This document shows, piece after piece, positions 1 to 12,099 of a DNA stretch of 39,803 nt. The notes beneath the pieces are model-generated. The model saw only the letters and a program-made list of their open reading frames with translations, ran no database searches and had not been told where the DNA came from. The position numbers and the translations under genes were made by a program. The stretch covers positions 595,287-635,089 of the forward strand of contig MKVB01000001.1 of assembly GCA_001899085.1 (NCBI GenBank). The letters run 5' to 3'. This stretch comes from Devosia sp. 66-14. GTDB lineage: Bacteria; Pseudomonadota; Alphaproteobacteria; Rhizobiales; Devosiaceae. Every line of letters begins with the position of its first letter. Position 1 is the stretch's first letter.

Positions 1-572
1 AAGTCGGGGGTACCGGCAATGATGGCGAACCTGCGTCGGCCTACCGCCCATAGGTGATCGACCGCCTCGTTGATGCCGGCCGCTTCGTCCGGCGCGATAT
101 CAGGGAGACCGTCGTTAAAGCCATAGTTGTTGAGGACGATGACCGGCAGACCGTCGGCGACGGCCTTGGAGAACATCGGGATCGACTGCTGCAAAGCGAC
201 GACCAGGAGCGCATCCATTGCGCCTCCGCGCAACTGATCCGCGAGACGCTCCGTCTCTTCAGGGGTTTCCGGAAAGGCGTGCAGCGTCAGGCTGAAATGC
301 GTGGCCTGAAGGATGCCCATGGCGCCGCGCAACACCTCGATCATCCAGGGCGACGTATCAAATGGCGCGACCAAGGCGACGACATTGGCTCGCCCGCGGG
401 CCAACTGCACGGCCCTTTCGCTGCGGACGTACCCCATCTCATCGATGACGCGCTTAACGCGAGCGGACGTTTCCGCATCGACGTCTGGCCGGTCGTTCAG
501 AACCCTCGAGACCGTCGTTTTCGAGACCTGCGCTGCCGTTGCAATGTCCGCGATGTTGAGCCGCCGTGCCAT
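1..572 (-). CDS. LacI-family transcriptional regulator (3' end beyond window)
   Basis: Read on the minus strand from ATG at 572, the frame stays open for 190 codons to the window edge. The N terminus reads MARRLNIADIATAAQVSKTT, followed by VSRVLNDRPDVDAETSARV, a textbook LacI/GalR helix-turn-helix plus hinge helix (residues about 5-55). It continues into a periplasmic-binding-protein-like sensor domain (GRANVVALVAPFD near residue 60, then LLVVALQQSIP). A GGGGAAG Shine-Dalgarno lies 1-3 nt before the ATG. The family binds palindromic operators as dimers and releases or binds them on sugar or nucleoside ligands; the ligand here cannot be told because the C-terminal half is missing. Three operator-like palindromes lie directly upstream, which suggests autoregulation. 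A large plus-strand frame overlaps it but is its antisense shadow. Confidence 0.9.
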   Translation of the reverse strand, partial: MARRLNIADIATAAQVSKTTVSRVLNDRPDVDAETSARVKRVIDEMGYVRSERAVQLARGRANVVALVAPFDTSPWMIEVLRGAMGILQATHFSLTLHAFPETPEETERLADQLRGGAMDALLVVALQQSIPMFSKAVADGLPVIVLNNYGFNDGLPDIAPDEAAGINEAVDHLWAVGRRRFAIIAGTPD

Positions 573-785: not shown

Positions 786-1463
786 ATGAACCCGCCAGTG
801 ACGACGCCTATCCCGGAATGGCAGTGGTGGCTGGAGCGTATCGCCAGTGCAGGACCAATCGTAACCGCGCTCATCGCAGCTGCCGGCTTTGTTCTTGCGG
901 TTATGACGTACCGAAAGTGGCATCCGGAAGCGGTTGGCAAGCGCAAGATCGAGCTAGCCGAGGACATCCTCGCTGACTTCTACAAAGCTCGGGAGGTTAT
1001 TCGTTCAGCTCGCTTCAACGTCGTCTTCGTCGGTGAGGAGAGCGAGCGTAAGCCTGAAGCTGCCGAGACCCCTGGGCAGAAGAAGGCGCGTGACGGGTTC
1101 TACCGCGTGTTCGAGCGCCTACAGAAAGAGCGACAACTCTTCGCGGAGCTCCATGCTCGTCGCTACCGCGCAATGGCCTATTTCGGTAAAGAAGCTGAAG
1201 CTCTGTTCGACGACTTTCGGCGCCTGCAAGTTGAGCTGACGACGTCGGCAAGCATGCTTATCCAGTATTGGAACGAGGACCCTGCACAACGTCCCGCAGG
1301 CTGGGCTGAGTGGGAAAAGATAACCGGCGAACTCTACGATCCGTTTGGCGGCGACGAGTTCTCGGGAAAGGTCGACGCTTTGATCGTGCGCGCCGAGGGC
1401 TTCTTCGGAACGTGGCTGATGCGAAAGACCGAAAAGCCCAAGGTCGCTGTCAGCGACCCCTGA
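786..1463 (+). CDS. Membrane-anchored protein of unknown function
   Basis: 225 aa from ATG 786. The open frame extends further upstream, but that part is antisense to the LacI-type gene, so this ATG, which begins MNPPVTTPIPEWQWWLERIA, is preferred; the Shine-Dalgarno is weak. One hydrophobic helix spans about residues 20-42 (AGPIVTALIAAAGFVLAVMT). A long charged, helix-rich cytoplasmic part follows, with many Arg/Glu/Lys and aromatic residues (FYRVFERLQKERQLFAELHA). This matches no family I can name; the layout of a short N-terminal tail, one helix and a soluble helical domain is common among small anchored accessory proteins. It converges with the TIR gene, the two stops being only 4 bp apart. 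It may belong to the same element, but co-function is not shown. Confidence 0.7.
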   Translation: MNPPVTTPIPEWQWWLERIASAGPIVTALIAAAGFVLAVMTYRKWHPEAVGKRKIELAEDILADFYKAREVIRSARFNVVFVGEESERKPEAAETPGQKKARDGFYRVFERLQKERQLFAELHARRYRAMAYFGKEAEALFDDFRRLQVELTTSASMLIQYWNEDPAQRPAGWAEWEKITGELYDPFGGDEFSGKVDALIVRAEGFFGTWLMRKTEKPKVAVSDP

Positions 1464-1467
1464 TCAG

Positions 1468-2505
1468 CTAGACCTTCAGGTTCTCTTCCCAGAATTGGAG
1501 GTCGTCAGTTTCCATTGACCCGCCAGCGGCCGTCCGCTCCCTCACGAGGTCTGCAGCCTCTTCACTGGCAAGGAACTGCTCAACATCCCGCACGGCGTTA
1601 GCGATACGCTGCATTTTTGGCGTACCCCACAGGTACTTATGCGGAACGTCGCGCTCCATCATCTTGTACTGCACAGCTGCCTCGGCATCGGACTTTTGGT
1701 CTCTGTCCATCCAGTCTACCGCTGCCGCCTTGTCGTAGAGATCGAGCAGCATGTTGCGATAAAACCAAATGCTGACCCGCGGTCGCGCTTCAGAGACGGC
1801 ATTCATCAACTCGCTGAACTGCCGCCCCGCATCGACAGCTCCCTTGGGAGCCATGATAGCCTTGACGGCGGCGGGATCCTTTGCCGCCTTCAACTGGTCA
1901 ATCGTTTCGTTGGCCTCTGCAAATTCCTCTTGGAGCTCGGCAAGCTCCTTCCTCGTTGCCTCTAGCTCCGCGTTCAATGCTTCCACTTCACTCGCGGGCA
2001 CACTGGTCGCAGGCGCAAGGTTCTTCAAAAGTCTCGCGAGATCGGCCTTCCAGGCGGTGCGTTTCCTGTCCCAATCATGGTCGGTACGCGGTTCCAGAGT
2101 GATCCCGCTGTTCCTGATCATTTCTCGGAGGTCGATAAGTTTTGTATGATCGTCGAGGCTCCAGCCTTGCTTTAGGCCAAGGGTGCTGGAAATCACATCG
2201 AACTTGATCGGTGGGACAACGATCGGCAAGGCCTGGTGGGACTTCACCCACGTAGCGCCAAGTTCCATAAGGCAGAACCAGCTCTCGAGATACCGGGGCG
2301 TGATGAGCAATATCACCAGCTTCGGGCTTTGAATTTGGCTCTTCATGTACTCGTTGAAGTCGTAGCCAAGCGGGATGCCCTGCCCCGGAATGCTTGACAC
2401 GAAAATCGACCTCGCAGGCACACCGATCGCTTCCTTTAGGAAGGTGACAAACTTGTCGGCGAGCGCCTTGTCGGCAACGGCGTGGCTGATGAAAATGTCG
2501 GTCAT
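1468..2505 (-). CDS. TIR-domain protein with coiled coil, putative NAD-cleaving defence effector
   Basis: 345 aa from ATG 2505, preceded by GAGGG with 5-nt spacing. Residues 1 to about 160 form a TIR domain: MTDIFISHAVADK at the start, an alanine/lysine-rich first helix, then LVILLITPRYLESWFCLMEL. The Trp76-Cys78-x-x-Glu81 arrangement matches the motif whose Glu is catalytic in NAD-hydrolysing bacterial TIR proteins. Residues about 172-208 are a strong Glu/Leu heptad coiled coil. The last 130 residues form a soluble domain I do not recognise, perhaps a sensor or oligomerisation part. It lies between a membrane protein gene and an intron-bearing tRNA, near a tyrosine recombinase, a typical place for phage-defence genes. 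NADase activity and a defence role are inferred from the family; no partner such as ThsA or an Argonaute is seen in the window. Confidence 0.82.
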   Translation of the reverse strand: MTDIFISHAVADKALADKFVTFLKEAIGVPARSIFVSSIPGQGIPLGYDFNEYMKSQIQSPKLVILLITPRYLESWFCLMELGATWVKSHQALPIVVPPIKFDVISSTLGLKQGWSLDDHTKLIDLREMIRNSGITLEPRTDHDWDRKRTAWKADLARLLKNLAPATSVPASEVEALNAELEATRKELAELQEEFAEANETIDQLKAAKDPAAVKAIMAPKGAVDAGRQFSELMNAVSEARPRVSIWFYRNMLLDLYDKAAAVDWMDRDQKSDAEAAVQYKMMERDVPHKYLWGTPKMQRIANAVRDVEQFLASEEAADLVRERTAAGGSMETDDLQFWEENLKV

Positions 2506-2535: not shown

Positions 2536-2835
2536 TGGTGCGGACGGCGGGAATCGAACCCGCACGGGCACTGCCCTACGGATTTTCGTACCACTTCGGC
2601 TTCCGCCGCCGTCCTGAAGGACGTTTGTGGTCTGGACTATCCCTTCACCGTAGCAGATGCCTTAGGTGCCGCCCGTCTAGTCTCTACACCTTCCGCCGGG
2701 AAGCGGCTTGGCTCGGGATTGGCCGGACGCAATGCCCTTGGCTTTCCCCGAATTTGAGCGGTTCTACGTCCGGGATTTCTCCCGGCGCACTCAATCGTCT
2801 AAGTCCGTTGCGTCTACCAATTTCGCCACGTCCGC
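2536..2835 (-). tRNA. tRNA-Leu(UAA) interrupted by a group I intron
   Basis: Exon 1 is 2801-2835 and exon 2 is 2536-2586, with an encoded CCA at 2536-2538. The acceptor stem GCGGACG pairs perfectly with CGTCCGC. The D arm is GCG-AAATTGGTAGA-CGC. Joining the exons gives an anticodon stem ACGGA/TCCGT with loop CTTAAAA, so the anticodon is UAA. A long class II variable arm (AGGGCAGTGCCCGT region) and a T arm GCGGG-TTCGATT-CCCGC complete a normal leucine tRNA. The intron splits U34 from A35, the same position as in cyanobacterial and plastid tRNA-Leu(UAA). It lies 64 bp downstream of the recombinase gene and 31 bp upstream of the TIR gene start, all on the same strand. Confidence 0.93.
2587..2800 (-). 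ncRNA. Group I intron (IC3-like), 214 nt, no internal ORF
   Basis: On the minus strand the intron starts AGACGATTGAGT and ends in G next to exon AAAATCC. The core elements are recognisable in order: P-like AAATTCGGGGAAAGCC, Q-like AATCCCGAGCCAAGCC, R-like GTAGAGACTAGACGG (near 2673-2688) and S-like GGGATAGTCC (near 2633-2642); GACTA and TAGTC can pair as P7. The 5' exon ending ACTT pairs with the internal guide GAGT, giving the U-G pair at the splice site. These boxes closely match the tRNA-Leu introns of cyanobacteria (subgroup IC3). Self-splicing is inferred. There is no homing-endonuclease frame. Confidence 0.92.
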
Positions 2836-2898
2836 ACTGGGGGTGTTGTAGCAGAGCAAGCGCATGCGGCAACCACTCTGACGGCACTGCGAGCAGGT

Positions 2899-4131
2899 TT
2901 AGCCTGCCGCAGGTTCCGGTTGCTCCAGCGACGTCAGGTGCGCGTTGCGCTTGGCGAGTTCTTCCTGCTGCTTCTTGGTCAGTGGCTTCTTGCGCACGTT
3001 CACCGCAGCCGCGCTGATGTTGTTCTTGATGTGCGCAGCATAGAATTTCTCGATCATCTCCACACTGGTTCGGCAGTTTTTAGCGACCTGGTAGATGTCC
3101 GCCCCCTCCTCCAGCCTCATGCTGATGTAGGTGTGCCGGAGGCTGTAGGCGGACCGCCGATTGCCTTCGCGATCGAAGCGCATCTTGGTCTCATCGAGGA
3201 TTGACACCATCAGTCCTGCCATGGATGTCGGGAAGAGGAGATCGGACGGCTGAGGGCGGTTCCGCTCAACCATCCGCTCAAAAGGGAACACTGCGTTCGC
3301 AGTGCTTTTGCAGTAGCCCACGCCGCGCTTGCCGCGCACAGCGATGATGAGGATCGTCTCCTGTGTCTCTTGGTCGATGGCAACTTCGATGTCGCGGTAC
3401 TGGAGCCGCTTGGCCTCGTCGGGGCGGAGGCCCGTGTTGGTCATAATGAGGATGAAGTCGAGAAACTGCTCCGCATTGTACTGCCAGCGCTTGCCCTTGT
3501 GCTGCTTCGCCTTGTCACGGGCGGCTTCGTAAAGGGCTTTGTACTCTGGCTTTGAGAACCATCCCCGGTGGGAAATCTTCTCGGCCTTCTGATAGGGAGC
3601 CGTCATGTCAGGAAGTGAAGCGAGCAGGTTGTGACGGCTTGCGTACTTTAGAACTTGGCGCAGGACGACAATCTCTTGGTGCAAGGTCTGCTTGGCCGGC
3701 ACTTTGGTCGTTCCCGGAGCCGGCGTCAGGCGCTGAACGCGGTACTCATGCACCTTTGCCGACGTCACCTCCGCGAGGGTCAAATCGCCGAAGAACGGCA
3801 ACAGGTAGTTGGCGAGGCGCCGTGAGTTGCCGTCAACATAGATTGCGTTCCGGTTGCCGCCAGTGATGATGGCGTACTCTGCCTCCCACTTCTTTGCGGT
3901 ATCGCGAAATGTGGGGCCGGTGGGAACGTTGAGGGTCCCTGCCCGCTGCTTGCCGCGGAGGGTCAGGTACCAGTCTGACGCGAACTCCTTAGCGAGGCGC
4001 AAGCTGTCGGTGCCGGTGCTGACGCGGTGGTTCTTCCCATCGACGAATGCGGAGCACTGCCAGTTGCCGTTTTCGGCTCGGCGATAGACATGGCACTTGC
4101 CGTCAAGAATGGTGTGTTTTTGCATTGGCAT
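2899..4131 (-). CDS. Tyrosine recombinase / integrase
   Basis: 410 aa from ATG 4131 (a second ATG at 4125 is possible). Residues about 10-60 resemble the arm-binding or AP2-like N-terminal part, 70-180 the SAM-like core-binding domain, and 190-370 the catalytic domain. The catalytic set is visible: Arg236 in TNTGLRPDEA, a Lys in VRGKRG, Arg332-His333 in AYSLRHTYIS and the nucleophile Tyr364 in EKFYAAH. The family cuts and rejoins DNA at attachment sites, often in tRNA genes. The gene reads away from a damaged tRNA-Leu-like sequence 110 bp upstream, the normal layout of an integrase next to its attachment site. The element therefore probably extends leftward past the window start. No excisionase is visible nearby. 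Confidence 0.93.
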   Translation of the reverse strand: MPMQKHTILDGKCHVYRRAENGNWQCSAFVDGKNHRVSTGTDSLRLAKEFASDWYLTLRGKQRAGTLNVPTGPTFRDTAKKWEAEYAIITGGNRNAIYVDGNSRRLANYLLPFFGDLTLAEVTSAKVHEYRVQRLTPAPGTTKVPAKQTLHQEIVVLRQVLKYASRHNLLASLPDMTAPYQKAEKISHRGWFSKPEYKALYEAARDKAKQHKGKRWQYNAEQFLDFILIMTNTGLRPDEAKRLQYRDIEVAIDQETQETILIIAVRGKRGVGYCKSTANAVFPFERMVERNRPQPSDLLFPTSMAGLMVSILDETKMRFDREGNRRSAYSLRHTYISMRLEEGADIYQVAKNCRTSVEMIEKFYAAHIKNNISAAAVNVRKKPLTKKQQEELAKRNAHLTSLEQPEPAAG

Positions 4132-4169
4132 CGGATTTCTCGTCCTTTGCCCCAGCTTACTCCATCCAG

Positions 4170-4189
4170 ATGTGTAAGCAATGTGTAAG
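4170..4189. repeat. Tandem ATGTGTAAG repeat upstream of integrase
   Basis: The nonamer ATGTGTAAG occurs at 4170-4178 and 4181-4189, 11 bp apart, one helical turn. It lies in the integrase leader between its start codon and the tRNA-like remnant. Spacing and place fit an integrase arm or excisionase binding site, but this is only suggestive. Confidence 0.4.
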
Positions 4190-4240
4190 TGTTTTGCTGC
4201 TCAAAATTGCAGCACGTTTCACTCTAAGTCGTTGATTTTA

Positions 4241-4316
4241 TGGTGCCCATGGGTGGACTCGAACCGCCACTGGAAGGATTTTAAGTCCGGTATGTCTACC
4301 ATTCCATCACGCCCGC
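4241..4316 (-). pseudogene. tRNA-Leu(UAA)-like remnant, probable hybrid attachment site
   Basis: On the minus strand a 76-nt tRNA-shaped sequence ends in GGGCACCA and carries the leucine-type D arm ATG-GAATGGTAGA-CAT and the anticodon loop CTTAAAA (UAA). It cannot fold properly. The 5' acceptor GCGGGCG does not match the 3' acceptor CATGGGC (three of seven normal pairs plus one wobble). The anticodon stem CCGGA/TCCTT has two mismatches, the T stem GGCGG/CCACC has one, and the long variable arm of leucine tRNA is missing. Each half looks tRNA-like on its own, as if two different tRNA halves were joined near the anticodon loop. It sits 110 bp upstream of the integrase, so I read it as an attachment-site scar in a former tRNA-Leu(UAA). 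Gradual decay of an old tRNA is the alternative. Confidence 0.65.
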
Positions 4317-4436: not shown

Positions 4437-4802
4437 ATGCAGTTCATCGACCGCTACCCCATCACCGTCACCGACCAGTTCGCCGCTTGCCGCGATTTCT
4501 GGGCCAGGCACCTGAGCTTCTCAGTCGTGTTCGAGAACGAGTGGTTCGTCTACATGCAGGCCGATGGCGCCAGCATTGCCTTCATGTCGCCTGCCCACCC
4601 CTCCTATCCCCCGGGCCCCGAAGCCTATGCGGCGGGAACCAGCATGGAGCTCGAGGTGAAGGACGCCGCCGCGGCGCTCGAGGAGGTACGTGCCACCGGC
4701 AAGGAACCCGACTATCCGCTGACCGACGAACCCTTCGGACAGCGCCGCTTCAGCCTGAAGGACCCGTCGGGCCTGTGGATCAACGTGGTGCAGCAGCTCT
4801 AG
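4437..4802 (+). CDS. VOC-family (glyoxalase/bleomycin-resistance-like) protein
   Basis: 121 aa from ATG 4437 with AGGAGG 5 nt upstream, a near-ideal ribosome site. The sequence shows the paired beta-alpha-beta-beta-beta modules of the vicinal oxygen chelate fold: ITVTDQFAACRDFWARHLSF at the start, MELEVKDAAAALEEVRATGK in the second module, and the end motif FGQRRFSLKDPSGLWINVVQ. Such proteins are metal-dependent lyases or dioxygenases, or drug-binding proteins; the substrate cannot be read from sequence. It is the first gene to the right of the element boundary and converges with the hypothetical gene at 4813. The inverted repeat upstream may regulate it. Confidence 0.88.
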   Translation: MQFIDRYPITVTDQFAACRDFWARHLSFSVVFENEWFVYMQADGASIAFMSPAHPSYPPGPEAYAAGTSMELEVKDAAAALEEVRATGKEPDYPLTDEPFGQRRFSLKDPSGLWINVVQQL

Positions 4803-5752: not shown

Positions 5753-6526
5753 TCAGTAGGCCTCGACGTCCGGCGACAACCCGGCAGCGCGGTGCGCTTC
5801 GGCAACCATCGCGCGAACCCGCTCCGCCGCCGCGGCAAGCCGCGCCTCGTCGGACGAGCGCAGCACCAGCTCGGTCATCACGAATGTCTGTCCCATCTGC
5901 GGATAGCTGCCCATCTTCACGTCGGAGAATTCCAGCTGGATCTGGCCGAGCGGACCGCCAATGGTGCCCTCGCCCACCCGACAGCGGATGGTGATCGACT
6001 TGATCCTGTCTCCGCCACGCAGCGTCGGCCTGATCGCCTCGAGCATGGCCAGCATGATTTTGGGCACGCCCGCCATGACGTGGACATTGCCGATGCGAAA
6101 GCCCGGCGCGGCGCTCACCGAGTTGGCGATCAGCGACGCGCCCTCGGGGATGCGCGCCATGCGCAGCCGGGCCTCGTTGACCTCGGTGCCGCTCTGCTTC
6201 CAGCGTTCTTCCATCATGGCGCGGGCCTCGGCATTGATCGGCAGCGCCACGCCGAACGCCTTGGCGATGGCGTCCGCGGTGATGTCGTCATGCGTCGGGC
6301 CGATGCCGCCGGTGGTGAAAACATAGGTGTAGCGGGCCCGCACCGCGTTCACCGCGGCGACGATATCGTCCTCGACGTCGGAGACGACCCGCACCTCCCT
6401 CAGCTCGATCCCTAGCTCGGTGCAGAAGTCGGCCGTCGCACCGATATTCACATCCTTGGTCCGGCCGGACAGGATTTCATCGCCGATGACGACGAGAGCG
6501 GCGGTAACGGCTTCGGGCGATGGCAT
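5753..6526 (-). CDS. CinA-type molybdopterin-binding domain protein
   Basis: 257 aa from ATG 6526 ([20 protein letters not shown]); 60 upstream in-frame codons are rejected because they overlap the divergent map gene and lack family likeness. The N-terminal 170 residues are a MoaB/Mog fold: [14 protein letters not shown], then [20 protein letters not shown] with the ligand-binding [10 protein letters not shown] loop, and later [19 protein letters not shown] smaller alpha/beta part ends the protein. This is the short form of competence/damage-inducible protein A, without the C-terminal nicotinamide-nucleotide amidase domain, as is common in alphaproteobacteria. A role in nucleotide pyrophosphate clean-up is possible but unproven. 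It diverges from map. Confidence 0.88.
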
Positions 6527-6698
6527 GGCGGCCCCGGATTTGCGAGGCACAATGCATTGCCTCACCAAAGCCCGAAAGGTCAAGCAATCCGGCGGCTCAT
6601 CGGGTCCGGTTGCCCACAATATTGCCGCGGAGCCGGCAGCGCCAACACACTTCCAATCCTGAACCCGAACGCCTACTTTCGTTTCGAACGGAGCCGCC

Positions 6699-7529
6699 AT
6701 GATCACCTACGTCGAAGCCGAAACCAAAAGCCGCCGCACCTCGGGCGTGATCCCGCTGCACGGCGAAGCCGGCTTCAACGGCATGCGCAAGGCCGGTCGC
6801 CTCACCGCCGAAGCCCTCGACCTGCTGGTCGATGCGGTGAAGCCTGGCGTCACCACTGCAGCGCTCGATCGGCTGGCCTACGAGTTCGCCCGCGACCATG
6901 ACGCCATCCCGGCGACGCTGTTCTACAAGGGCTACCGCCACTCGATCTGCACCTCGATCAATCACGTCGTCTGCCACGGCATCCCCGAGGAGCGGCCGCT
7001 GCGCGAAGGCGACATCGTCAACATCGACCTGACGCTGATCGTCGACGGTTGGTACGGCGACAGCTCCCGCATGTACCCGGTCGGCGAGATCAGCCGGAAA
7101 GCCGAGCGCCTGATCGACGTCACCTATGCCAGTCTCGCCGCCGGCATTGCCGCGGCCCGGGCCGGCGCCACCACCGGCGATATCGGCGCCGCCATCCAGT
7201 CGCTGGCCGAGGCCGAGCGGATGAGCGTGGTGCGCGATTTCGTCGGGCATGGCGTTGGGCAGCTCTTCCACGATGAGCCCAACATCATGCATTTCGGCGT
7301 TCCGGGCACCGGCGTGCCGCTGAAGCCGGGCATGATCTTCACCATCGAACCGATGATCAACCTGGGCCGTCCGCACGTCAAAATCCTCGCCGACGGCTGG
7401 ACCGCGGTGACGCGCGATCGCACCCTCTCGGCTCAGGCCGAGCACTCGATCGGCATCACCGAAACCGGTGTCGAGATCTTCACGCTCTCGCCGCGGGGGC
7501 TGTTCAACCCGCTCGATGCTCGTCGCTAG
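6699..7529 (+). CDS. map: Methionine aminopeptidase, type I
   Basis: 276 aa from ATG 6699 with GGAG 6 nt upstream. It removes the initiator methionine from nascent proteins. The pita-bread fold and the five metal ligands are visible: the two Asp in VNIDLTLIVDGWYGDSSRMY, the His in RDFVGHGVGQLFHDEP, the Glu in MIFTIEPMINLG and the Glu in LSAQAEHSIGI. The substrate-pocket motif SINHVVCHGIPEERPL is also present. Length is usual for proteobacterial type Ia enzymes with a short N-terminal extension. radC starts 3 nt after its stop, so the two genes form a transcription unit, an arrangement frequent in related bacteria. Confidence 0.97.
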   Translation: MITYVEAETKSRRTSGVIPLHGEAGFNGMRKAGRLTAEALDLLVDAVKPGVTTAALDRLAYEFARDHDAIPATLFYKGYRHSICTSINHVVCHGIPEERPLREGDIVNIDLTLIVDGWYGDSSRMYPVGEISRKAERLIDVTYASLAAGIAAARAGATTGDIGAAIQSLAEAERMSVVRDFVGHGVGQLFHDEPNIMHFGVPGTGVPLKPGMIFTIEPMINLGRPHVKILADGWTAVTRDRTLSAQAEHSIGITETGVEIFTLSPRGLFNPLDARR

Positions 7530-7532
7530 ACG

Positions 7533-8255
7533 ATGAGCGACGCGGAGAAGCCATCGCCGGACGGACTCGGCGAGGCCCCTGCTCCGCACTATCTCGGGCA
7601 TCGGGAGCGCGCGCGGCAGCGGTTTCTCCAGCTTGGCGAACAGCACATCGAGGATTACGAGCTGCTGGAGCTGATCCTGCAGATCGTCATCCCCCGCAAG
7701 GATACCAAGCCGCTCGCCAAGCAACTGATCCGGACCTTCGGTTCGTTCTCCGGCGTGTTCTCGGCGAGCCCGCAGCAGCTCGACGAGATCAAGGGCCTCG
7801 GGCTGATCTCGGCCACCAACCTCAAGGTCATCCAGGCCGCCGCCCAGCGTTTCGCCCGCGACCGCATGACGCCGGACCTGCCGGTCCTCGGTTCATGGAC
7901 CGCCCTGATCGATTACTGCCGCGCCCAGATGGCGTTCAATGACGTCGAGCAGTTCCGCATCCTGTTCCTCGACAAGAAGAACCGGCTGATCGCCGACGAA
8001 GTGCAGCAGACCGGCACCGTCGACCACACGCCGGTCTATCCGCGTGAGGTGATCAAACGCACGCTGGAGCTGTCGGCGACCGCGCTGATCCTCGTGCACA
8101 ACCACCCCTCGGGCGATCCGACGCCGTCAGCGGCGGATGTTGAGATGACCCGCCGGATCAACGACGTCGCTCGACCGCTGGGGATCACCGTGCATGACCA
8201 CATCATCATCGGGAAGTCAGGGCATTCGTCGATGAAGGGGTTGAAGCTGATCTAG
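7533..8255 (+). CDS. radC: RadC-family JAB domain protein
   Basis: 240 aa from ATG 7533, three bases after map. An N-terminal helix-hairpin-helix region ([20 protein letters not shown] to [16 protein letters not shown], residues about 40-105) is followed by a JAB1/MPN metalloprotease-like domain. The zinc motif is intact: [19 protein letters not shown] gives the His-x-His and the Asp, and a Glu lies upstream in [15 protein letters not shown]. Despite the old name, the family has no firm role in DNA repair; in some genomes it accompanies mobile elements, but here it lies in housekeeping context. Its stop overlaps the stop of the opposing DUF4279 gene by 3 bases. Confidence 0.95.
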
Positions 8256-8656
8256 TCGCGGCCCCGGTAGTAGATATCGAGATCGATCCGAAGCCCCCGC
8301 CGCGCCAGACGCTCAAGAGTTGGCGCTTCAAGCCCGATGCCCTCGTTTCCGCCATTGAGAAAGAGCCCGATGAAGAGCTCTCCATCGTATTGCTGAGCAA
8401 GCTCTCGCCAGATCACCAGGTCCGAAGCCAGGCTGTCGAGAAGCTTGCAGATCTGGCTGTCGAGATCGCCGGGCCTTTCCCTCGGCCCTCTGAACGAACA
8501 TAGCCCTGTTCGGCCGATGCCTCTGCCTCGGCCCATCGGCTCGCCCTTGCGGTAGGCTATCTCAGGCTGCCCACCCAAGGCTGCGACGATCTGCGCTGGG
8601 TCGAGGTCATCGCCTGAAAAGCGCAGACTGACGGCAGTCTCACTGACCGTGCTCAT
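8252..8656 (-). CDS. DUF4279-family protein
   Basis: 134 aa from ATG 8656, whose start lies 17 bp inside the preceding gene, so translation is probably coupled; GAAGG sits close before the ATG. The N-terminal pattern [20 protein letters not shown], then [10 protein letters not shown] and a middle helix with [16 protein letters not shown], matches small DUF4279 proteins, as does [20 protein letters not shown] near the end. The function of the family is unknown. It has no membrane helix or signal. It overlaps radC tail to tail. Confidence 0.78.
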
Positions 8657-9875
8657 CGCCTTCGGTCCTTGGCGTCTCACCCTTCGCCCGCAGCATCCGC
8701 CCGCGCACCGCCTTCACCGCGCTCATCACCGCCTTGTTCGCCTTGAGCTTCTGCCGCAGCACCTGCCAGCCGAAGTGGCCTTTGGCCGCCATGGTGCCCA
8801 ACGTGGTCAGCGGCACATAGTGCTGGCGCACCGGCAGCTTGAGGTTGCACCAGTGGCGCTTCTCGTCGGTGAAGCCGGCGCCCATGTCGAAGACGCGATA
8901 GCCCGCATCGAACACCGTCTGCATCACCCGCAACAGGCACTGCTTGCCAGGCGAGCCGGTCTGGATCGTCGCGTCGTCGCTCATCGAGGAGATGAGGCAG
9001 AACAGCCGCCCGCCATGCGCGATGTTGTAGCGAACGGCGACGATCTCGCCGTCGAGCCGCAGCACCTGCAGCCGCACATCCAGGCCGCCGGTCGGCGACA
9101 GCGTCGCGTCGTAGAACGCCCTGACGCCCGGCTCGGCAAACGGATCCGGCACGCCCATGGCCAGGAACCGCGCGGCGCGCTGGCGGAACATCAGCTCGAG
9201 GATCGGCATCGCCTCCGGTCCACCGCGCACCTCCTCGAAACTCACCTGCCCCAGCGCCTCGAGCCGTTCGCCCTGCTGGCGATCGTGCTTGCGGCGCGAT
9301 TTCGAGCGCTGCGTGGTGTTTGCCTCTTCCCAGCTCGCGAATTGCGCTCGGTAGAGCGTCTCCGCCTCGATCGATTGTCCGAGCTCAGCGAAAATATCGA
9401 CCCCCGCGACGAACAGCTGCGGCACCGACTTCAGGTAAATGAGGTCAGCCCCCTCCAGCTTTTCGAGCATTGCCGACCACAGCGCCGCCCGCTCCACCGA
9501 GCCGAGCATCGCCAGCCGCTCCGCATCGACCAGCGGTGCGTTGCAGCCGACATGCGGGCCGGGAAACCATGACAGCAGCCGCACGCCCTTGACGCGTCGC
9601 CGCCACAGCGCCAACAGCGCCACCGGCTCCCCGTCGAACGCGGCGGTCAGGTAGAGCTGGTCGTCCTCGGCGATTTCCATCGCCTCCACCCAGGTACGGG
9701 TAAAGGCAGCGCTCTGGCCCGGCGACTCGATCTCGGCCGCTTCCAGTGCTGCCCAGCTCGCCGCGACGTCCTCGATCCGGTGCGTCACCGTCACAGTCGC
9801 CACCGGCACCACGGTCAGCCGCTGCCGCTGTTGCCGCGGCGGCGGGGTATCCTCTGCATAGGCTTCGAGAGCCAT
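8640..9875 (-). CDS. GNAT-type acyltransferase of the CelD/BcsL family
   Basis: 411 aa. ATG 9875 is chosen because GAGGA lies 7 nt upstream; a TTG at 9893 would add six residues. The protein carries two GNAT-like halves as in FemAB and CelD/BcsL enzymes: HRIEDVAASWAALEAAEIES and QSAAFTRTWVEAM in the first, then RSKSRRKHDRQQGERLEALG, LRLDGEIVAVRYNIAHGGRL and YRVFDMGAGFTDEKRHWCN in the second. Family members are linked to cellulose or other exopolysaccharide modification; the acyl group and acceptor are unknown here. No cellulose synthase genes are in the window, so a polysaccharide role is only a family hint. A DUF4279 gene overlaps its 3' end. Confidence 0.86.
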   Translation of the reverse strand: MALEAYAEDTPPPRQQRQRLTVVPVATVTVTHRIEDVAASWAALEAAEIESPGQSAAFTRTWVEAMEIAEDDQLYLTAAFDGEPVALLALWRRRVKGVRLLSWFPGPHVGCNAPLVDAERLAMLGSVERAALWSAMLEKLEGADLIYLKSVPQLFVAGVDIFAELGQSIEAETLYRAQFASWEEANTTQRSKSRRKHDRQQGERLEALGQVSFEEVRGGPEAMPILELMFRQRAARFLAMGVPDPFAEPGVRAFYDATLSPTGGLDVRLQVLRLDGEIVAVRYNIAHGGRLFCLISSMSDDATIQTGSPGKQCLLRVMQTVFDAGYRVFDMGAGFTDEKRHWCNLKLPVRQHYVPLTTLGTMAAKGHFGWQVLRQKLKANKAVMSAVKAVRGRMLRAKGETPRTEGDEHGQ

Positions 9876-9992
9876 CGCCCATTCCTCGTCCAAGGTTGGG
9901 GCGACTATCGTGAGCCGAGGTGAATCGGCTGTTGACGCATCCGTGATCGATCGCCGCGACGGTCGATTTCGGCGGCGACGGTTAAGCCGCCC

Positions 9993-10730
9993 TTACCCGA
10001 ACTGTTGCAGAATCGGGAAGGTCTCGAGGAACCAGAACGAGATGCGGGTGAACTGCCCGGTGAGGAACAGCAGCCCTGTGACCACCAGCAACCCGCCCAT
10101 CACCTTCTCGACCATGCCAAGATGCTTCTTGAAGCCGGAAAAGAAGGTCAGGAACGGTCCGATGGCGATGCCGGCCAGCAGGAACGGCACACCCAGCCCG
10201 AGCGAATAGAGCCCGAGCAGCGCCGCACCATCGAGCGCCGTTTCCTTGGTCGAGGCCACCGCCAGGATCGCCGCCAGCACCGGCCCGATGCATGGCGTCC
10301 AGCCGACCGCGAAGGCCAGCCCGAGCAGGAACCCGCCCACCGGTCCGCTCGCCACGCCCGGCCCATTGTGCCGTAGCTGCCGATCGAGGAAGGCGATCCG
10401 ATAGACGCCGAGGAAGTGCAGCCCCATTGCGATGATGAACAGCCCGGCGATCGGCGTGATGATCGGCAGTGCCTGTCGGAACGCCTGGCCGAACGCCGTC
10501 GCCGTGGCGCCGAACAGGATGAAGACGATCGAGAAGCCCGCGATGAAGAACAGCGAGGTGAAGACGCTCTTCCGCCAGATCACCCCGGCGGTGGCGCCAT
10601 CGTCGCGCAACTGGTCGAAGCTCGCCCCGCTCATATAGGTGAGGTAGGGCGGCACCAGCGGCAGCACGCAGGGGCTCAGAAAGCTCAGCACCCCTGCCCC
10701 GAACACCAGCCAGAACGAAAACCCGTCCAT
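9993..10730 (-). CDS. ccdA: CcdA-type cytochrome c biogenesis / thiol-disulfide transport protein
   Basis: 245 aa. Two consecutive ATGs occur at 10733 and 10730; GGAGG lies only 1 nt before the first, so the second, with 4-nt spacing, is favoured. Six to seven membrane helices are evident. The two redox cysteines are conserved in FLSPCVLPLVPPYLTYMSG (helix 1) and AVGWTPCIGPVLAAIL (helix 4). CcdA passes electrons from cytoplasmic thioredoxin to periplasmic thiol proteins, keeping apocytochrome c cysteines reduced. No other cytochrome c maturation gene is adjacent. The 117 bp to the next leftward gene include the possible hairpin GGCGGC-N9-GCCGCC. Confidence 0.95.
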   Translation of the reverse strand: MDGFSFWLVFGAGVLSFLSPCVLPLVPPYLTYMSGASFDQLRDDGATAGVIWRKSVFTSLFFIAGFSIVFILFGATATAFGQAFRQALPIITPIAGLFIIAMGLHFLGVYRIAFLDRQLRHNGPGVASGPVGGFLLGLAFAVGWTPCIGPVLAAILAVASTKETALDGAALLGLYSLGLGVPFLLAGIAIGPFLTFFSGFKKHLGMVEKVMGGLLVVTGLLFLTGQFTRISFWFLETFPILQQFG

Positions 10731-10879
10731 CATGCCTCCGACAAATCGCGCGAAGTCATAGCCGGTTCGGGGCCGAAGGCAATGCGGCGGGCCGCCGCTC
10801 GCTCCGTTGTGAAGGCGTCTGGCCGGACGGGCCGAAGTAACGTAGCACTCTGCCTTCCCCGGTCAGCCAGCGAGTACCG

Positions 10880-11323
10880 ATGTCGCCAGTCGTTCGCCTT
10901 GAACCGATCACGCCGGCCAATCGCGCCCAGCTTGTCGCCCTCTCGGTCGCCGCGGAGCAACGGGATTTCGTCGCGACCAATGCCGACTCCCTGTGCGAAG
11001 CAGACGGGAACCGGGCCTGCTTCCCCTTTGCCATTGCCGTCGATGGCAGCGTCGTGGGTTTCGCGATGTATGCGCTCGACCCCGACGACGGCAATTACTG
11101 GATCTATCGGCTGATGATCGACCAGCGGCACCAGCATCGTGGCATCGGGCGTGCTGCACTGGCAGAGCTTATCGCGCTCATGTCCGCCCTGCCGAACTGC
11201 CCGCGCATCGTCCTCGGGGTCGAACCAGGCAATAGTGCGGCCCGCGCCCTCTACGAGTCAGCCGGCTTCGTCGCCACCGGTGAGGTCATCGGCGGCGAAG
11301 CGGTGATGTGCCTCACCTGCTGA
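10880..11323 (+). CDS. GNAT N-acetyltransferase
   Basis: 147 aa from ATG 10880. A complete GNAT fold is visible: the N-terminal VRLEPITPANRAQLVALSVA, the central strand AIAVDGSVVGFAMYALDPDD, the acetyl-CoA pyrophosphate loop QRHQHRGIGRAALAELI (Gln/Arg-x-x-Gly-x-Gly), and NSAARALYESAGFVATGE near the C terminus. It resembles the spermidine/diamine and RimI-like groups, but the substrate cannot be assigned. It diverges from ccdA and is followed by rpe after about 100 bp in the same direction. Confidence 0.93.
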   Translation: MSPVVRLEPITPANRAQLVALSVAAEQRDFVATNADSLCEADGNRACFPFAIAVDGSVVGFAMYALDPDDGNYWIYRLMIDQRHQHRGIGRAALAELIALMSALPNCPRIVLGVEPGNSAARALYESAGFVATGEVIGGEAVMCLTC

Positions 11324-11421
11324 GCCGGCGGAACCCGGGCCCTGTCTTTCGCGAGGGATGACATCGGGGTTGGGGCGGGGTAAGCAGCCCATATATGTCA
11401 GCCCCTACTGACCGAGGCCCC

Positions 11422-12099
11422 ATGTCCCGCCCGATCCGCATTGCGCCTTCCATTCTGTCCGCCGATTTCACCCGTTTGGGCGACGAGATCCGCGCCGTCG
11501 ATGCAGGTGGCGCCGACTACATTCATGTCGATGTGATGGACGGTCATTTCGTCCCCAACATCACCATCGGCCCGCTGATCGTTTCGGCCATCCGCCCGCT
11601 CACCAAAAAGATCATCGACGTCCACCTGATGATCGCTCCGGCAGACCCGTATCTGGGCGCGTTTGCCAAGGCCGGCGCCGACTCGATCACCGTGCATGCC
11701 GAGGCCGGCCCGCACTTGCATCGCTCGCTGCAGGCCATCCGGACCGAAGGCAAGCGCGCCGGCGTCGCCATCAATCCGGCGACCCCCGTTTCTGCCATCG
11801 AGCACGTCATCGGCGATGTGGACCTGGTGCTGGTGATGAGCGTCAACCCCGGCTTCGGCGGCCAGAGCTTCATCCCCGAGAGTCTGAACAAGATCCGCCA
11901 GGTGCGCGCCCTGATCGGCAGCCGGCCGATCGACCTCGAGGTCGATGGCGGCGTATCCGAGCACAATGCCAAGGCGCTCGCCGATGCCGGTGCCGACCTC
12001 TATGTCGCCGGCACGTCGGTATTTTCCGGCAACGACCCCAAGACCTATGCCAGCCGCATCGCGGCCATCCGCAACGCCGCGACCGCCGTTACCGCGTAA
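11422..12099 (+). CDS. rpe: Ribulose-phosphate 3-epimerase
   Basis: 225 aa from ATG 11422, preceded by GAGG with 4-nt spacing; an in-frame ATG 27 bp upstream has no ribosome site. The TIM-barrel enzyme interconverts ribulose-5-P and xylulose-5-P in the pentose phosphate pathway, upstream of PRPP and thus purine synthesis. Signature segments are all present: [37 protein letters not shown] with metal and catalytic Asp/His, [18 protein letters not shown] and [12 protein letters not shown]. Length is normal. purB starts 34 bp downstream on the same strand. Confidence 0.97.

Follow-up and report, generated by a model that had tools for sequence, protein, structure and literature searches.

Tyrosine integrase between two tRNA-Leu(UAA) sequences

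We analysed a 39,803-nucleotide stretch of the genome of Devosia sp. 66-14 (the window, corresponding to G000:C1:595287-635089, where G000 denotes this genome), in which a tyrosine integrase gene lies between two tRNA-Leu(UAA) sequences, one broken and the other interrupted by an intron. Read from the right, the gene order is a host flank gene of the glyoxalase family (4437..4802), used by us as the locus marker, then the broken host tRNA gene (4241..4316), the integrase of 410 amino acids (2899..4131), the intron-bearing tRNA-Leu(UAA) gene (2536..2835) and a TIR-domain gene. All of these are on the minus strand except the marker, which is on the plus strand. A sequence-only reading of this DNA had described a malformed tRNA with a UAA anticodon loop, an integrase just inside it and a complete intron-bearing tRNA-Leu(UAA) gene behind the integrase, and all three features are borne out.

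The 5′ half of the broken gene (4276-4316, minus strand), which runs from GCGGGCG at the first base through the sequence GGACTTAAAATCC, is identical to the intact gene of G014, a member of the same genus. Past GGACTTAAAATCC, the broken gene diverges from it and continues into an unrelated, degenerate 3′ half derived from the element (4241-4275, minus strand), with the terminus CATGGGCACCA. ARAGORN calls no tRNA at 4241-4316, and the Rfam tRNA model scores the hybrid at 27.7 bits, just under its gathering score of 29, and flags acceptor positions that do not pair; the long variable arm is missing as well. The complementary host half, expected at a far element end to the left of the window, was located there. 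The region G000:C1:559974-561380 matches the G014 sequence downstream of its intact tRNA gene (82% over 1407 bp), the G014 tRNA itself matches in part at G000:C1:561480-561538, and the far end reads GATAGA, then GGACTTAAAATCC, then the remaining tRNA-Leu ending in CGCCCGCACCA, which can pair with GCGGGCG at the start of the broken gene. The repeat at both ends, the attachment core, measures 13 bp (4276..4288, minus strand, repeated at G000:C1:561534-561546). The element therefore occupies G000:C1:561534-599574, approximately 38.0 kb, and interrupts the host tRNA-Leu(UAA) gene within its anticodon stem-loop. Rejoined in silico, the host halves fold as tRNA-Leu(taa). According to ARAGORN, neither junction (attL in the window, attR at the far end) folds as a tRNA, which rules out ordinary restoration of the target. 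A direct sequence scan also revealed a pair of TTACACA repeats inside each element end (4171..4188, minus strand, in the window), which resemble integrase arm sites and are candidates for this function.

ARAGORN finds the element-borne tRNA-Leu(UAA) gene only when introns are allowed. Its exons (2801-2835 and 2536-2586, the latter including CCA) are separated by a 214-nt group I intron (2587..2800, minus strand), which is inserted after gene position 35, between U34 and A35, and splits the 13-bp core in the DNA. Spliced in silico, the transcript folds as an 86-nt tRNA-Leu(taa). The intron matches the Rfam model Intron_gpI over positions 1-253 of 253 (46.5 bits, E 3.5e-10) and would be self-splicing; we take it to belong to the tRNA-Leu(UAA) intron family of bacteria (Rfam RF00028).

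In the genome assembly, which is rated 100% complete and consists of 13 contigs, pattern and similarity searches found no UAA gene beyond the broken gene and the intron gene; tRNA-Leu(CAA) and tRNA-Leu(GAG) genes are also present. Long matches to the intron gene occur in two of 61 genomes (this genome and 60 relatives), namely G000 itself and G058. The marker gene was found in six relatives with 75-94% identity over its full length, and all six carry an intact, intronless tRNA-Leu(UAA) gene at the same locus and none of them the malformed gene, as the sequence-only reading had anticipated for relatives lacking the element.

The split gene, the short core, the complete replacement gene, the position of the intron within the core and the recurrence of this arrangement described below can all be read from the sequences. 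They suggest that the integrase uses the anticodon stem-loop as its recombination site in the host tRNA-Leu(UAA) gene, with cutting presumably at the anticodon loop. Because the attachment site and the host gene share only 13 bp, integration would leave two useless tRNA halves. The complete tRNA-Leu(UAA) of the element, the only UUA decoder detected in this cell, would then take over the decoding of this codon. Such a replacement would itself contain the 13-bp core; with the group I intron splitting the core in the DNA and being spliced from the RNA, it could function and yet escape recombination by the integrase of the element and by related ones. The host gene would be restored by exact excision, whereas the tRNA gene of the element could not be lost as long as the element stays. 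We are fairly confident that the locus represents such a split-and-replace element with an intron-shielded tRNA-Leu(UAA). The proposed dependence of the host on the element stands in part: no second UAA gene was found, and dependence would be conditional, given that the host halves would form an intact gene again if the element were excised exactly.

Recurrence and targets of related integrases

At E 1e-30 or better, relatives of the integrase are present in 24 of 397 genomes of the order, its own included. A scan of named genomes confirmed at least 381 relatives, from which we retained the 80 best, and two viral scans gave one and two. After subtraction of 14 loci with identical integrase sequence from 113, 99 loci were surveyed; only sequence went into building the model R1. 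By target, these comprise 32 loci with a broken tRNA-Leu(UAA), 24 with a broken tRNA-Leu(CAA), 27 with an intact non-leucine tRNA and 16 with no readable target upstream of the integrase. Integration at the anticodon loop with a non-functional hybrid and an element-borne tRNA, as first read from the window, is backed not only by the far end and the intact genes of relatives, as described above, but also by 31 further loci. The UAA loci belong mainly to Pseudomonadota (21 of 32) and Acidobacteriota (5 of 32), as do the CAA loci (15 and 8 of 24, respectively). At four Planctomycetota loci the integrase is followed by a tRNA-Leu gene and the broken host gene is not visible.

An intron-bearing tRNA-Leu gene is present at 29 of the 32 UAA loci. 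Twenty-five of these match over the whole profile, three are truncated where the contig stops (L178, L202 and L213), and L198, for which only the start is seen, was counted from its exon and intron start at a contig end and has no profile match. The replacement begins 32-657 nt behind the integrase match, except in L149, L150 and L151, where it lies 2.2-5 kb away on the opposite strand. No replacement is seen in L204, where the contig ends 52 nt behind the integrase; this locus was excluded from the Fisher and pair tests. At the CAA loci, by contrast, a replacement CAA gene was found at only 14 of 24, a single one of which has an intron (L193), and the other 10 show none within 2.3-6 kb behind the integrase. 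Any replacement is thus more frequent at UAA than at CAA loci by plain count (29/31 versus 14/24, Fisher p 0.0026), and a broken gene without visible replacement is correspondingly more frequent at CAA loci (10/24 versus 2/31, p 0.0026). A tRNA with a UAA anticodon can by wobble also read UUG, the codon of the CAA tRNA. The two targets, UAA with a nearly constant, intron-bearing replacement and CAA often with none and rarely with an intron, offer a natural experiment on dispensable tRNAs.

The intact non-leucine targets are Phe, Met, Arg, Lys, Gln, Trp and Asn genes. None of these 27 loci has a replacement tRNA-Leu, a control that is weaker than it looks, since only about 1.5 kb or less behind the integrase was surveyed in 19 of them and 6 kb in the other eight; L129 has a tRNA-Met on the strand opposite to its integrase and close to it. 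With respect to the assignments, L203 was left out of the broken set as its apparent half is its own tRNA, L209 was added to the CAA set by hand, and ARAGORN misnames five full-length profile matches (L192, L196, L206, L207 and L212).

In 27 of the 32 UAA genomes we searched for a second, uninterrupted UAA gene, and none was found by pattern in 23, whose assemblies may be incomplete. The other tRNA half was recovered in seven further UAA genomes, and all seven pairs rejoin to tRNA-Leu(taa), so that here, too, the host gene would be regained if the element were excised exactly. A comparable insert with a different integrase was observed in G052 (locus L112, G052:C1:575000-594999), where 14.5 kb at approximately 579599-594113 split a tRNA-Leu(UAA) gene whose halves also rejoin to tRNA-Leu(taa). 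The replacement tRNA brought by this insert lacks an intron and has an altered core; judged only from translations of its open reading frames (ORFs), the insert resembles a type I restriction gene set.

In a tree of 92 integrases, the leucine-targeting rows group together with modest support (89/61) and are surrounded by lines whose targets are other tRNAs, which stay intact; one arginine row (L197) falls inside the group. Constraining the 55 leucine rows to one clade was not rejected (p 0.149). On the starred branches, the UAA label requires a minimum of 11 changes and the CAA label of eight. The intron follows UAA targeting in 7.6 of eight independent pairs on average (median p 0.0078, up to 0.07). 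A T-arm-like GGTTCGA, or decayed tRNA 3′ half, is kept at six of the 32 UAA junctions (the window, L148-L151 and L155). Together with the rebuilding lines that surround the leucine rows, this fits a loss of target rebuilding after a replacement had been gained. In L150 and L151, the tRNA sequence at the junction extends past the variable arm into the middle of the T-arm before it diverges, as if the ability to rebuild had been lost recently.

The survey also yielded several individual observations. In L226, a small element of about 6.2 kb is complete, with its two junctions contained in the same locus (approximately 5829-12057). In L168, L170, L173, L189 and L222, arm-like repeats and a bare core lie upstream of the integrase with no host tRNA, and these are apparently unintegrated attP forms inside genome bins. 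L221 carries an integrase of the same family with a tRNA-Leu(UAG) behind it, possibly a third leucine target. Among the relatives of the Devosia strain, a short contig (L053, G012:C388) contains a tRNA-Leu 3′ half without a 5′ half, and the UAA-gene similarity search gave no match in G005, G012 and G013; further split tRNA genes in the genus of G012 are possible.

The intron and the attachment core

Each of the 25 complete intron-bearing UAA replacements has a first exon that ends with GACTT and a second that begins with AAAATC, and these would be joined to GACTTAAAATC, the core of 86 of 88 ordinary UAA genes (102 rows minus 13 chance rows, recognised by eye, and the hybrid of the window). By-eye reading showed that the first bases of the intron re-create CTTAAAA in none of the 25. 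The three intronless UAA replacements all have altered cores, GCACTTAAAATGC in L170 and L222 and GGACTTAAAATTC in G052, compared with two altered cores among the 88 ordinary genes (p 8e-5). For CAA, the commonest native core occurs in two of 13 replacements versus 77 of 100 native genes (115 rows minus 15 chance rows, again by eye; p 2.4e-5), a difference that we regard as suggestive only. The Fisher tables for these core comparisons were compiled by hand. These patterns are consistent with an intron that probably protects the replacement tRNA gene from the integrase of its own island.

Several findings weigh against this interpretation. The intron of the window scores 3.5 bits under the Rfam gathering score of 50, and 10 of 12 related intron sources, including the locus of the window (L116), also fall below it; only L043 and L203 pass. 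The association of target with any replacement is not significant in independent pairs (median p 0.5), and two UAA loci (L148 and L228) show no replacement within 2.2-2.5 kb. A second intact UAA gene was detected by ARAGORN in four of the 27 searched genomes (G437, G439, G441 and G450), all of them metagenome bins. Two CAA replacements (L169 and L181) retain the central core, and the replacement core differs from that of its own target in 11 of 13 CAA cases with a shuffle mean of 9.5 (p 0.21); we have consequently dropped the idea that intronless CAA replacements avoid the core of their own target beyond chance.

Introns also exist outside of such elements. At a threshold of E 1e-15, a profile of four intron genes matches in 50 of the 397 genomes examined from the order, and in 27 of them over the whole model, although the filters of this profile lose weak matches. 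Three of the 27 matches are element-borne and 24 are not. Among 30 intron loci examined, 27 have no member of the integrase family within 1.5 kb, which also counts against our interpretation, and three do (the window, G084 and G193); ARAGORN names some of the 27 integrase-free loci as other tRNAs, for example tRNA-Arg(cct). When 20 intron loci were examined with flanks of up to 10 kb, none showed a related integrase, in a search that was accompanied by positive controls and confined to this integrase family, and eight of these 20 loci share several neighbour genes with ordinary intronless tRNA-Leu loci. Thus, the intron can be present for other reasons.

The most serious alternative builds on these observations and accepts the same split-and-replace element, in which the intron is not protective and merely hitchhiked from a host with an intron-bearing tRNA-Leu(UAA) gene. 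The 24 genomes with full-length matches that are not element-borne and the eight loci in ordinary chromosomal neighbourhoods are in line with such a source, and CAA elements mostly manage without introns (one in 14 replacements). However, an intron is found in all 29 element-borne UAA replacements with a visible broken gene versus 24 of 397 genomes of the order, it tracks UAA targeting on the integrase tree, and the three intronless UAA replacements all have altered cores. We therefore consider hitchhiking rather unlikely. The earlier proposal of the intron as a shield fits the comparative data, with the reservation that introns of this kind occur in chromosomal genes as well.

More tentatively, this element family may have made a self-splicing intron into an anti-integrase shield, and collapsed elements may have left intron-bearing tRNA-Leu(UAA) genes in chromosomes, which would in part explain the scattered distribution of these introns; we offer this as a possibility that may well not hold. 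That all intron-bearing tRNA-Leu genes derive from elements is unsupported in view of the shared chromosomal neighbourhoods. In G309 (L291, approximately 9856-10400), one of the loci with such a shared neighbourhood, a broken tRNA-Leu half lies about 200 bp from an intron-bearing tRNA-Leu gene with no related integrase in reach, possibly a collapsed element whose tRNA was kept.

Two further explanations deny the split or its consequence. In the first, the malformed tRNA would be an old pseudogene or an assembly artefact and the intron gene native, with no element present. Chromosomal intron-bearing genes do exist in the order, and the contig span contains two short N runs within the proposed element (G000:C1 594785-594843 and 595252-595286); because the second directly precedes the start of the window, continuity to the left rests on scaffolding, a further point against our reading. 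Nevertheless, the missing half is found at the opposite border, precisely where collinearity with G014 resumes, and other loci repeat this arrangement with host halves of their own and, in seven cases, a matching far half, all of which makes this explanation very improbable. The second, that the junction hybrid is a functional if unusual tRNA and nothing essential was lost, could draw on its retained anticodon stem-loop, T-arm-like stretch and CCA and on its near-threshold Rfam score, and is equally improbable given the unpaired acceptor, the missing variable arm, the lack of an ARAGORN call and the rarity of the T-arm-like motif at such junctions.

Relation to known systems and cargo of the element

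The split-and-replace scheme that we favour is of a known kind, tRNA-dependent lysogeny, which has been genetically proven in actinobacteriophages (Guerrero-Bustamante and Hatfull 2024, PMC10865867). In the excerpts of that paper used here, prophage Lj965 of Lactobacillus johnsonii is named as a likely case, the examples include a tRNA-Leu-CAA (phage Gaia), the relation to tRNA-rebuilding systems is called not clear, and the word intron occurs only in the reference list. Both systems have a tyrosine integrase and attP and attB sites that share a short sequence in a host tRNA gene (about 10 bp there, 13 bp here), and in both the host tRNA is not rebuilt and an element tRNA of the same isotype substitutes for it. 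In contrast to those phages of Actinobacteria, here a defence-carrying island and its relatives in Pseudomonadota and Acidobacteriota are concerned, with the evidence coming from genome sequences, and the target is the UAA gene with an intron-split replacement. The new aspects are accordingly the intron-split replacement, the UAA target, the cargo of defence genes and the broken genes in Pseudomonadota and Acidobacteriota. The latter bear on the prevalence of tRNA-dependent integration outside actinobacteriophages, a question raised in the same paper.

Protection against integration has been stated, with citation, for archaeal tRNA introns (Sugahara et al. 2012, PMC3293823). There, too, an intron interrupts the integrase target in a tRNA gene; in archaea, however, the intron protects the host or was acquired by way of attP, whereas here a group I intron resides in the replacement tRNA of an element. 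With bacterial tRNA-Leu(UAA) group I introns (RF00028), the intron of the window shares the whole-model match and the insertion after U34; elsewhere in the order these introns are chromosomal, whereas here the intron gene lies behind an integrase. Ordinary tRNA islands, as described in the Islander paper (PMC4383910), likewise have a tyrosine integrase, an anticodon-centred attachment site and a tRNA-gene fragment at the far end, but they rebuild their target from attP and the present element does not. Our literature search, for which most subscription papers were beyond reach, found no group I intron in the replacement tRNA of an element. If our interpretation is true, the intron hides the gene from the integrase as DNA and leaves the RNA unchanged. 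Group I introns in bacterial tRNA genes would thereby have a function that can be tested, and the element would illustrate how mobile DNA can make its own loss difficult.

The interior of the element encodes Gabija (GajA and GajB) and IetA-IetS, both at G000:C1:565397-574213 (L011), an SpbK-like TIR protein and a Schlafen-like protein. In the window, the TIR gene occupies 1468..2505 (minus strand); its ORF was listed as 1468-2571, but since the ORF overlaps the tRNA upstream of the methionine at 2505, translation more likely begins at that methionine. It is followed by a cargo gene to which no function was assigned (786..1463, plus strand) and by a LacI-family regulator (3..572, minus strand), which is cut by the start of the window. 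ARAGORN hits for a tRNA-Gly in the window and for a tRNA-Trp at C1:580457-580531, inside a long ORF, were taken as chance matches.

A Pfam scan of 22 interior proteins, representing part of the interior ORFs, showed no phage structural family among its matches, and the L155 integrase, the only query used, had no match in a phage collection. Two additional integrase-like pieces lie in the element interior. The integrase itself matches PF00589 below the curated cut-off and a PHROG integrase family with E 1.2e-31, and 24 plasmid records match the integrase query, four of them with at least 80% of the query covered.

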